From IMG/VR virus record IMGVR_UViG_3300029448_000158, positions 1-35,932 of that record: a stretch of DNA of 35,932 bases; one strand, written 5' to 3'. This DNA comes from a virus. The position numbers and the translations under genes were made by a program. The stretch's first letter is position 1, and each line of letters starts with the position of its first letter. Shown piece after piece: positions 25,503 through 29,279 of this stretch. The notes beneath the pieces are model-generated. The model did not search any database, was not told where the DNA came from, and saw only the letters and a program-made list of their open reading frames with translations.

Positions 25503-26255
25503 TTATCCTGGTTGTTTCATACAAAATATTCCACATTCAAAATCATAATTTTTTAACGGTCTGCCTTTTGCGTTCAAGGGCAATGTGTCTAAATAAATCC
25601 TTTCCCCTTTATGTCTTACAAGTTTAGCTCCTATTTCTCTTGATTGTTTGGCTCTTCTCTCAAAAACCTCTGGGAAAGTTTTTCGTACTAAATTCCAATA
25701 AGTAGGAGACGTTGCTTTTACACAACCAATGCAATTAGCATTAGGATAACCAAGTTCGTATATTTTAGGCTTTTCTATGCCAGCTTCGTTTAATATATCA
25801 AAGCAATCTTGCTTCGTTATATTTTCATCTACCAATACAGGAATAAGGTTGTCCTTTTCTACCTCTTTAAACCTTATCGCTCTTTTTTCTTCATCAGCAG
25901 TAAAACCAAGCACTAAATAGTCTGTAATATTTTTAGCTTCCCATTCTTGTCTTGCGTTCTTTTTTAAATGCAAAGTGCATGGCGCACCAGAAACTCCAGA
26001 CATATACTGCCTAACATCCCAAACTGTTTCAGCTGAACAATCTGGAAACTTGGAGTTTATAGCGTATTCGATTTCTACTCCCAACCACTTTTCAACGTCT
26101 TTTAAAAATCTTTGATTATCTTCATGCTCTTCTACAACAGGGTTATTAACAACTCTTATATTGTTATCTTTGCCATATTTCTCTAGCGTAATCTTAGCCG
26201 CCACAGCTGAAGCAGCACCGCACGAAAACCAAACAGTTATTTCTTTATCTCTCAT
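25503..26255 (-). CDS. PAPS-reductase-like PP-loop protein with Cys motifs
   Basis: This 250-aa protein belongs to the adenine-nucleotide alpha hydrolase superfamily of PAPS reductases and DndC-like enzymes. VWFSCGAASAVAAKITLEKY is the PP-loop in its phage form (S-C-G-A-A-S, residues 9-14). APCTLHLKKNARQEW is the conserved Cys-Lys block. NANCIGCVKA and FECGIFC supply further Cys for an Fe-S cluster. Such genes are frequent in phages, and their reaction is unproven there: sulfate assimilation, nucleic-acid thiolation and other roles are proposed. The gene overlaps the YozE-like stop by four bases and sits inside the packaging operon. Confidence 0.75.
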   Translation of the reverse strand: MRDKEITVWFSCGAASAVAAKITLEKYGKDNNIRVVNNPVVEEHEDNQRFLKDVEKWLGVEIEYAINSKFPDCSAETVWDVRQYMSGVSGAPCTLHLKKNARQEWEAKNITDYLVLGFTADEEKRAIRFKEVEKDNLIPVLVDENITKQDCFDILNEAGIEKPKIYELGYPNANCIGCVKATSPTYWNLVRKTFPEVFERRAKQSREIGAKLVRHKGERIYLDTLPLNAKGRPLKNYDFECGIFCMKQPG

Positions 26256-27787: not shown

Positions 27788-27876
27788 TAGTATAAGTAGT
27801 ATAATAGGATATAAGCACCTAGTAGGTGCATCAAATGACCAGATAGGTGCATCAATCGACCTAGTTGGTGCATTAA
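27788..27876. other. Candidate replication origin with 21-bp iterons
   Basis: Three copies of TWGGTGCATYAA begin at 27823, 27844 and 27865, exactly 21 bp apart (two helical turns). An inverted GCACCT at 27815-27820 faces the first copy. Beside them is an AT-rich tract with 9-bp direct repeats (AGTATA at 27789 and 27798), like an unwinding element. The region is non-coding, between the methyltransferase/35-aa genes and the winged-helix gene. Iterons beside an initiator-like gene and near the primase-helicase fit an origin. An operator for autoregulation is the alternative. Confidence 0.55.
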
Positions 27877-27877
27877 A

Positions 27878-27985
27878 CTATTTCTTTTCACCCTTCTTTT
27901 TGGGTTCTTTCTTCTTAAATATCCGATCAAATTCCTTGTCGAACTTCTCTTTATTGAAGGGCCTGTAGTCTGATCCTTTACTCAT
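27878..27985 (-). CDS. 35-aa charged microprotein
   Basis: It reads MSKGSDYRPFNKEKFDKEFD and ends RIFKKKEPKKKGEKK. The ATG overlaps the methyltransferase stop by eight bases, with AGGAGAG at proper distance inside the methyltransferase end. Similar tiny ORFs (SDYRPFN...F) occur in other phages as I recall; no function is known. Its end borders the iterons. Confidence 0.6.
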   Translation of the reverse strand: MSKGSDYRPFNKEKFDKEFDRIFKKKEPKKKGEKK

Positions 27986-29279
27986 CTATCTCTCCTAAAA
28001 TAGCTAAAGCAATCCAGTATGCCACTTGTGGAACTATGGCATTACCGAGTGCTTTTAAACGATTGGCTCTGTTCTTTGGATTGGTGGTAACTCTGTCTAT
28101 TCCTCGTTCCCAAGATCCGTCCACCCATGAGGATACCCCATCAGACCTTCCACCCAGGTAGGATTCAAAGCTCCTGATTTCTCCGAAACCACCATCGAAA
28201 GGTTTAACTGCTTCCCCTTCTCCGCTCGTCTCTTGATCGCTGGAGTTGATAAGTTCCCCCTGTCTCGATTGTCCGAGTGTGCTGGAGTTGGCCACATCCT
28301 CATATGTACTTCCGCTGTTAATGTTGGTGTTTTTCTCGTGAACTCCGCTGGATATGCTCCCTCCTTCGATAAGTGAGCTGTCGGAGTCGGCCACATATTC
28401 TGTTCCGCTTCTTGAACTGCTACCGTTAGAGGTTTCCCCCCTTGTGCGTAGTTCTTCGTTCTCTCCGTTGCTGAATCCGTTGTTGGTGTTGGCCACATCT
28501 GTACTTCCTGACTCAATGGAGGTTTCTGTCCTCCTCCCTTGTGTTTCTTTCTCGGCTTCATTATGTTGTTGGAATCGAAAGCTGTTGGTGTACTCCACAT
28601 ATTCGGTTTCCCTGACTTCTGTATCTCCTCCGTTGGCCAGAACTTCACGAACCGATCCAGACTCACGCTCTTGCCTGTCATTGGATTCATTGTCTCCTTG
28701 CTCGTTGACTCCCTTTCTATGTGATCGCTCGCTGTTGGAGTTGGAATCCTCTTGCGTGTCTTGGGCGATAACCCAGACTCTATCTCTGCGGTGGTGGGCG
28801 TTGACGGAAGAAGCTGGAAGTACAACCGCCCTTGCGGAGTAGCCTTCGCTTTCCAAGTCAAACAACACATTGTCGAGTCCCAATGTGATGTGACCAGCAA
28901 CGTTTTCTGCCACGATAAACTTGGGTCTTTTCTGTTTAATAATTTCAAGCATGAACGGCCAGAGGTGGCGGTCGTCCTCCTCGCCTTTGCGCTTCCCAGC
29001 TTGACTGAATGGCTGACAGGGGTATCCCCCTGTGAGGATGTCACATTCAAGGTCTTGCCATTTTCCTTGTCCCCAAATAGGTCTTGTTGATTCATTTCTT
29101 ACTAACTCCGTAATGTCATTATAAATTGGAACACCGGGAAAGTTCTTTTTCAAGACCTTCTGTGGATATTCCTCTATTTCACAAAAGGCTACAGTCTCTA
29201 TCTTTTGAGTTGAATCAAAAGCCAAACTGAAGCCACCGATACCGCTAAACAGGTCTATATGTTTAAGTTTACTCATCAT
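27978..29279 (-). CDS. dcm: C5 cytosine DNA methyltransferase
   Basis: The 433-aa enzyme transfers methyl groups to cytosine in DNA, probably to resist host restriction. Motif I is DLFSGIGGFSLAF (about 9-21), motif IV GGYPCQPFSQAGKRKG with the catalytic Cys (about 88), motif VI VAENVAGH and motif VIII AHHRRDRVWVIA. Motif IX is RLKALGNAIVPQVAYWI near the end. Between VIII and IX (about 175-385), where the target-recognition domain should be, the sequence is a hydrophilic Glu/Ser/Asn/Gly-rich string with repeats such as VANTNN and VADSDS. That part coincides with the nested ORF in another frame. No restriction partner is seen. Its start overlaps the primase-helicase stop by 11 bases. Confidence 0.85.
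   Translation of the reverse strand: MMSKLKHIDLFSGIGGFSLAFDSTQKIETVAFCEIEEYPQKVLKKNFPGVPIYNDITELVRNESTRPIWGQGKWQDLECDILTGGYPCQPFSQAGKRKGEEDDRHLWPFMLEIIKQKRPKFIVAENVAGHITLGLDNVLFDLESEGYSARAVVLPASSVNAHHRRDRVWVIAQDTQEDSNSNSERSHRKGVNEQGDNESNDRQERESGSVREVLANGGDTEVRETEYVEYTNSFRFQQHNEAEKETQGRRTETSIESGSTDVANTNNGFSNGENEELRTRGETSNGSSSRSGTEYVADSDSSLIEGGSISSGVHEKNTNINSGSTYEDVANSSTLGQSRQGELINSSDQETSGEGEAVKPFDGGFGEIRSFESYLGGRSDGVSSWVDGSWERGIDRVTTNPKNRANRLKALGNAIVPQVAYWIALAILGEIDE
28097..29095 (-). CDS. Nested WPTPT-repeat protein inside dcm (alternate frame)
   Basis: A 332-aa ORF lies wholly inside the methyltransferase gene, on the same strand in another frame. It starts MNQQDLFGDKENGK, with GGAG ten bases upstream. 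It holds CLTWKAKATPQGRLYFQLLP (about residues 78-97), then five to six spaced motifs (IPTPTASD, MWSTPTAFD, MWPTPTTDS, MWPTPTAH, MWPTPAHSD), and ends LNPTWVEGLMGYPHGWTDL. I recall proteins with this order of motifs next to or over phage C5 methyltransferases, so it looks like a real family and not a shadow. Trp and Pro sit in a regular pattern while the dcm frame is low-complexity. A function in target recognition is a hypothesis; expression is unproven. Confidence 0.65.
   Translation of the reverse strand: MNQQDLFGDKENGKTLNVTSSQGDTPVSHSVKLGSAKARRTTATSGRSCLKLLNRKDPSLSWQKTLLVTSHWDSTMCCLTWKAKATPQGRLYFQLLPSTPTTAEIESGLSPKTRKRIPTPTASDHIERESTSKETMNPMTGKSVSLDRFVKFWPTEEIQKSGKPNMWSTPTAFDSNNIMKPRKKHKGGGQKPPLSQEVQMWPTPTTDSATERTKNYAQGGKPLTVAVQEAEQNMWPTPTAHLSKEGAYPAEFTRKTPTLTAEVHMRMWPTPAHSDNRDRGNLSTPAIKRRAEKGKQLNLSMVVSEKSGALNPTWVEGLMGYPHGWTDLGNEE

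Follow-up and report, generated by a model that had tools for sequence, protein, structure and literature searches.

A phage dcm-type locus that very probably encodes a split C5-cytosine DNA methyltransferase in two overlapping reading frames

In the two-polypeptide C5-cytosine methyltransferase M.EcoHK31I, the beta gene lies within the alpha gene, in another reading frame. The large subunit of this enzyme (target YGGCCR) carries motifs I-VIII and X and was assigned the target-recognition domain by prediction, and the small subunit carries motif IX (PMC3404938). In M.AquI, a split C5-methyltransferase for CYCGRG, the second polypeptide bears the distal variable region and motif IX (PMC3404938). 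Multispecific phage C5-methyltransferases contain several target-recognizing domains, as cited for M.H2I of phage H2 (PMC8936443). Both split C5 enzymes and multispecific phage enzymes are thus known already, and the locus analyzed here shares features with each of them.

The window (IMG/VR virus record, 35,932 bases) encodes portal, terminase and integrase and contains a gene of the annotated dcm type (alpha; 27978..29279, 433 aa) with matches to PF00145 (2.4e-45) and TIGR00675 (4.4e-37); this and all other window genes and gene parts with coordinates below are on the minus strand. The order in alpha was catalytic motifs I-VIII, a linker of 188 aa and motif X. The catalytic domain including PCQ was present according to the PF00145 match and the alignment with M.HhaI, which placed motif IV with the catalytic PCQ (GGYPCQPFSQAGKRKGEED) at 28974..29030; the PF00145 match reached only profile position 251 of 324. 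Motif X (RLKALGNAIVPQVA) was recognized from its sequence at 28020..28061, and a search for the motif IX pattern in the window alpha found none. The linker (28197..28760), the dcm-frame reading of the module array described below, is rich in Ser, Glu, Gly, Asn and Thr and is weakly constrained in the alpha frame. Variants of alpha were observed in relatives: the catalytic PC motif in the dcm frame of EBPR siphovirus 2 (L006, 491-2986) seems to be interrupted by a large intein-like insertion, with the nested beta downstream, and L005, L008, L249 and related loci have an insert ahead of motif VIII (e.g. GREESLFGEVDRKRILHRQEY in L008). In the beta frame the latter follows LKW/LRW (e.g. FSEKITEKEYCYDKSMLSK in L005), and the two readings co-vary.

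The preliminary description of this DNA had reported a 332-aa protein nested wholly inside dcm, and the ORF coordinates confirmed it: an ATG-initiated ORF (beta; 28097..29095) in frame +1 relative to dcm, with a match to PHROG 1008 (1.7e-29). All motifs quoted there for the nested protein were present. The repeated word noted in the same description, GTTGGCCACAT, did occur, and its positions (28287, 28488 and, with one mismatch, 28386) differ by a few bases from those quoted; it was only mildly enriched window-wide (13 matches with two mismatches or fewer, vs 7 expected), and its relevance is only that of a marker of module starts. The N-terminal domain of beta (residues 1-116, 28748..29095; TSGRxxL...LTWKxKATPxGRLxFQL), delimited by alignments and predicted to form two helices and a beta-hairpin, is overprinted on alpha motifs II-VIII. 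Near the other end, motif IX in the beta frame (ALNPTWVEGLMGYPHGWTDL, 28112..28171; pattern LNPxWVExLMGYP) is in the same register as LTPRECARLMGF of E. coli Dcm, and the C-terminus of the window beta, LNPTWVEGLMGYPHGWTDL, is spaced as in Dcm motif IX.

The beta family was not found in Pfam or NCBIfam; one faint match to DUF5869 (E 0.039) was set aside. Profiles of solved structures, searched with beta, returned chance matches only, and Foldseek with the model of beta alone, itself weak (AlphaFold pLDDT 60.7, poor fold), returned no match. The IX-X fragment alone matched nothing in Pfam or NCBIfam, and its profile gave nothing significant against E. coli Dcm or a phi3T-type enzyme; the motif IX call therefore rests on the Dcm register, on its place between the target-recognition-domain (TRD) modules and motif X, and on the end-to-end fold match given below. 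One alignment (A4), in which beta fragments were misplaced, was excluded. Elsewhere in the window, three 19-nt direct repeats (ACCTAGTAGGTGCATCAAA) with a spacing of 21 bp lie at 27817-27877 between dcm and an HTH/replication-like gene and are iteron- or operator-like. A PAPS-reductase-like gene (phrog_424, 25503-26255) is located about 1.7 kb from the methyltransferase, and of 356 related loci, 21 had a similar gene in the flanking DNA retrieved with them, among them C72C1 and Bacteroides phages.

A tblastn search with the window beta yielded 75 phage records, each below 60% identity; with the EBPR siphovirus 2 beta as query, the yield was 209, coliphage N15 among them. The loci inspected belong to phages of Paenibacillus, Lacticaseibacillus, Bacteroides, cyanobacteria, Rhodobacter, Xanthomonas, Komagataeibacter and E. 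coli, and the first scan of IMG/VR gave at least 517 confirmed relatives. A beta-like ORF was present in 249 of the 250 related loci compared. Overlapping alpha/beta pairs numbered 258, of which 256 were in frame +1; the two off-frame pairs involve a neighboring or fragmentary dcm ORF. When viral loci were fetched by alpha alone as a control for bias, 35 of 36 had the nested beta; the gene that did not (L351) carries an internal deletion. Fourteen control genomes contained dcm-family C5-methyltransferases in ten cases and the beta family in none, indicating that the double gene is a property of one dcm subfamily and not of dcm generally. The overlap is the rule for this subfamily and is more widespread than had been guessed; the earlier proposal of a conserved dual-coding methylation module was borne out by the same-frame pairs and by the alpha-only relatives, and no intact homologue with a closed nested frame was found. 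The second product had also been suggested to be uncharacterised; beta does have some annotation, in PHROG 1008 and in some records, the latter as 'g55 internal gene', 'Mte8-like' or a second 'DNA methylase'. Searches of E. coli genomes and plasmids led to phage-related loci where inspected. The closest E. coli loci were considered as restriction-modification systems and rejected as such, the three inspected being prophage loci; a prophage copy in E. coli Ec1117 (L251, 2863-4032) is annotated as two pseudogene pieces.

Pattern searches across 239 loci revealed motif IX in beta in 228 cases and in alpha in one, and motif X in alpha in 231 cases and in beta in none. Judged by these motif patterns, each chain appears to supply what the other is without. 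This layout resembles that described for M.EcoHK31I, with motif IX on the small polypeptide and motif X on the large one (PMC3404938). The TRD of M.EcoHK31I is predicted to be on the large subunit; in the window, the modules at the TRD position are on beta, and alpha has only a hydrophilic linker there. Natural REARRANGEMENTS, single chains in which one frame comprises motifs I-VIII, the modules, IX and X, were found in L245 (a Pelosinus MAG) and in two viral contigs, L254 and L260. The model of the L254 chain (pTM 0.70; module region pLDDT <50) superposed end to end on M.HhaI (Z 25.7, 224 residues, rmsd 2.7). The location of the modules between VIII and IX in the single chains, together with this superposition, shows that they occupy the position at which C5 enzymes have their target-recognition domain. 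In L260 (1482-2714), an extra module-like stretch (LWPTHTAGQHS...) was observed between motifs IX and X.

Split forms of another kind were found in L037 (Brevibacillus), L246 (Alicyclobacillus), L255 and L258, in which alpha ends after motif VIII and beta carries X in addition to modules and IX. The genes of Mycobacterium phage Romney and Streptomyces phage Samora are divided in this way too, with an overlap of only 23 and 32 nt. These six, with motif X also on beta, match the M.AquI layout. Unlike in M.AquI, motif X of the window is on alpha, and the window beta is nested rather than downstream.

Because beta has motif IX and modules at the target-recognition place, the nested product most likely completes the enzyme as its other half and is not an unrelated second product. 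The locus is very probably one heterodimeric split C5-cytosine DNA methyltransferase made from two overlapping frames, with modules that most likely recognize targets. Alpha would give the catalytic domain with motifs I-VIII and also motif X, and beta would give motif IX and, most likely, the tandem short target-recognition modules; the two chains are expected to form a physical complex. That beta is instead a real but separate protein, an independent regulator or anti-restriction factor that happens to sit in dcm, is very improbable. Its N-terminal domain has no recognized relative, and in the single-chain loci, where modules and IX are fused to alpha, a short separate nested ORF comprising this domain and one module is retained, as an independent protein might be. 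The N-terminal domain therefore has an additional role; however, the near-complementary distribution of motif IX across the loci and the natural single chains, which place modules and IX between VIII and X, both argue against an independent beta.

How beta is produced is suggested by its start. A Shine-Dalgarno-like GGAG (29106..29109) was identified in the sequence 10 nt upstream of the window beta ATG, and an SD-preceded start was found in 178 of 240 betas vs 18 in a control frame, a rough control since its search interval was set by the beta ORF. These counts favor initiation of beta on its own, and beta is probably translated from its own start within alpha.

The +1 frame in dcm is open for 333 codons. 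When the synonymous codons of dcm were shuffled 20,000 times with the protein kept, the +1 frame stayed open for at most 272 codons (mean 89) and never for 333; shuffles with the codon usage of the window's other genes gave a maximum of 213 (mean 61), and again none reached the observed length. The nested open frame is not due to chance. Across 80 loci, the profile score of the +1 frame averaged 190 bits vs 48 in synonymous shuffles, and the observed score was not matched by any of 20 shuffles per locus.

Codon differences were compared by alpha position (1/2/3) in well-aligned codons of 90 non-overlapping locus pairs, with a local filter that picks similar stretches, so that the absolute values are low by construction and the contrast between positions is unaffected. 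The 5' flank (.073/.032/.257) and the 3' flank (.061/.034/.251) showed ordinary single coding. Where beta lies over alpha motifs II-VIII, the values were.092/.045/.176; the suppression of silent alpha changes shows dual coding across these motifs. In the module region (.150/.045/.056), the freest base was alpha position 1, which is the wobble position of beta; this reversal was seen in 40 pairs against 3, and the same trend, with alpha position 1 again the most variable, was obtained without the local identity filter. Amino acid identity in the module region was 92% in the nested frame, 84% in alpha and 81% in the third frame. Conservation in the middle third is thus that of the nested frame, with the annotated dcm frame as a passenger. 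Selection on the dcm frame only, which the preliminary description had named as evidence against a second gene, is contradicted, selection in the middle third being mainly on the nested frame. Across the module region, alpha would then cross as a soluble linker to reach motif X, with selection acting on the beta frame.

These data bear on two further readings. Programmed frameshifting, by which ribosomes translating alpha would shift into the beta frame once past motif VIII and produce a single fusion protein, would with a +1 shift bring I-VIII, modules and IX together, and single chains of this kind do occur naturally; nevertheless, this is very improbable, given the frequency of SD-preceded beta starts, the conservation of the upstream N-terminal domain of beta with depressed silent changes in alpha, and the second shift that motif X would need. 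A by-product reading, in which the conservation of the nested frame is only apparent and imposed by the dcm protein and by codon bias, can draw on the part of the beta profile score that persists in the shuffles and on GC-rich third positions that help to hold the frame open, but is extremely improbable and is already contradicted by the codon pattern, with alpha-silent sites almost frozen and beta-silent sites variable in the modules, as well as by both shuffle tests and by the enzyme without motif IX that it would leave.

The split two-frame enzyme thus remains the preferred reading, and its central part was analyzed module by module. The window beta has five modules of about 33-50 aa each, with starts of the form (I/W)-x-T-P; in the family, cassettes typically start W-P-T-P and precede motif IX. 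Module 1 (IPTPTASDHIERE..., 28598..28747) had copies at 77-78% in L035 and L021, module 2 (WSTPTAFDSNNI..., 28496..28597) at 73-79% in L055, L048, L043, L047 and L062, and module 3 (WPTPTTDSATER..., 28394..28495) at 87% in L047. Module 4 (WPTPTAHLSKEGAYPAEF..., 28295..28393) was protein-identical in L011, with 96% nucleotide identity over 99 nt; the DNA upstream was unrelated and that downstream partly similar. Module 5 (WPTPAHSDNRDRGN..., 28172..28294), which is of the terminal type and adjoins motif IX, was assessed by comparison of its tail (24-28 aa), which was 79-92% identical to terminal-module tails in L019, L016, L014, L032 and L072. The best copies of all five modules (for module 5, of the tail only) were thus 78-100% identical, in viruses whose alphas are 31-54% identical.

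Across the family, 580 modules (median 39 aa; 0-7 per beta) were cut from 204 betas by an automatic splitter that misses some modules. There were 97 module clusters spanning several loci and 1,076 module-sharing pairs between loci with alphas less than 60% identical. By these sequence comparisons, the modules are recombining cassettes that move between viruses with unrelated alphas. Several clusters were always last in the array, adjoining motif IX, and terminal and internal modules may have different roles. We consider it somewhat more probable than its opposite that the modules form a combinatorial array, with a separate DNA site read by each W-P-T-P cassette, swapping of cassettes between phages as DNA blocks, and overprinting that ties specificity to the catalytic partner. 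Recombination of cassettes would allow a phage to change or add methylated DNA sites, presumably evading host restriction. It is the position of the modules, the literature on split and multispecific enzymes, and the recombination pattern that suggest recognition of targets by the modules, multiple specificities and an anti-restriction use.

M.EcoHK31I is a single-target restriction-modification enzyme, whereas the present genes are found in phages with variable module arrays. In being phage-borne, with short exchangeable modules of about 40 aa arranged in tandem where the variable region or TRD would be, they are like the multispecific phage enzymes; the latter, however, have their modules in the catalytic frame of one chain, whereas here the array is overprinted and on a separate subunit. 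PHROG 1008, which was matched by every other beta tried as well as by that of the window, is named 'DNA methyltransferase', a name silent on its members being nested in, and complementing, another methyltransferase gene. The literature on overlapping phage genes covered here, with few subscription papers included, does not mention the alpha/beta pair, and we have not found described a large phage family with an exchangeable module array and motif IX overprinted on the catalytic subunit.

A very common class of phage genes, usually annotated as single-chain Dcm, thus appears to be two genes, and in the middle third of such a gene the annotated frame is the passenger and the unannotated frame the real coding one. 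To our knowledge, few same-strand overlaps of phage genes are as long and as widely conserved as that of alpha and beta, and this one has a clear reason to exist. Since coliphage N15 and laboratory mycobacteriophages carry the double gene, these proposals are testable at once. If the combinatorial array is real, one gene of about 1.3 kb would be a multi-target, rapidly re-programmable methyltransferase in phages of several bacterial phyla. Should the modules act as recognition units, the shuffling seen in nature would amount to a large library for reading a target-recognition code of cytosine-5 methylation, and would explain how phages keep pace with host restriction.
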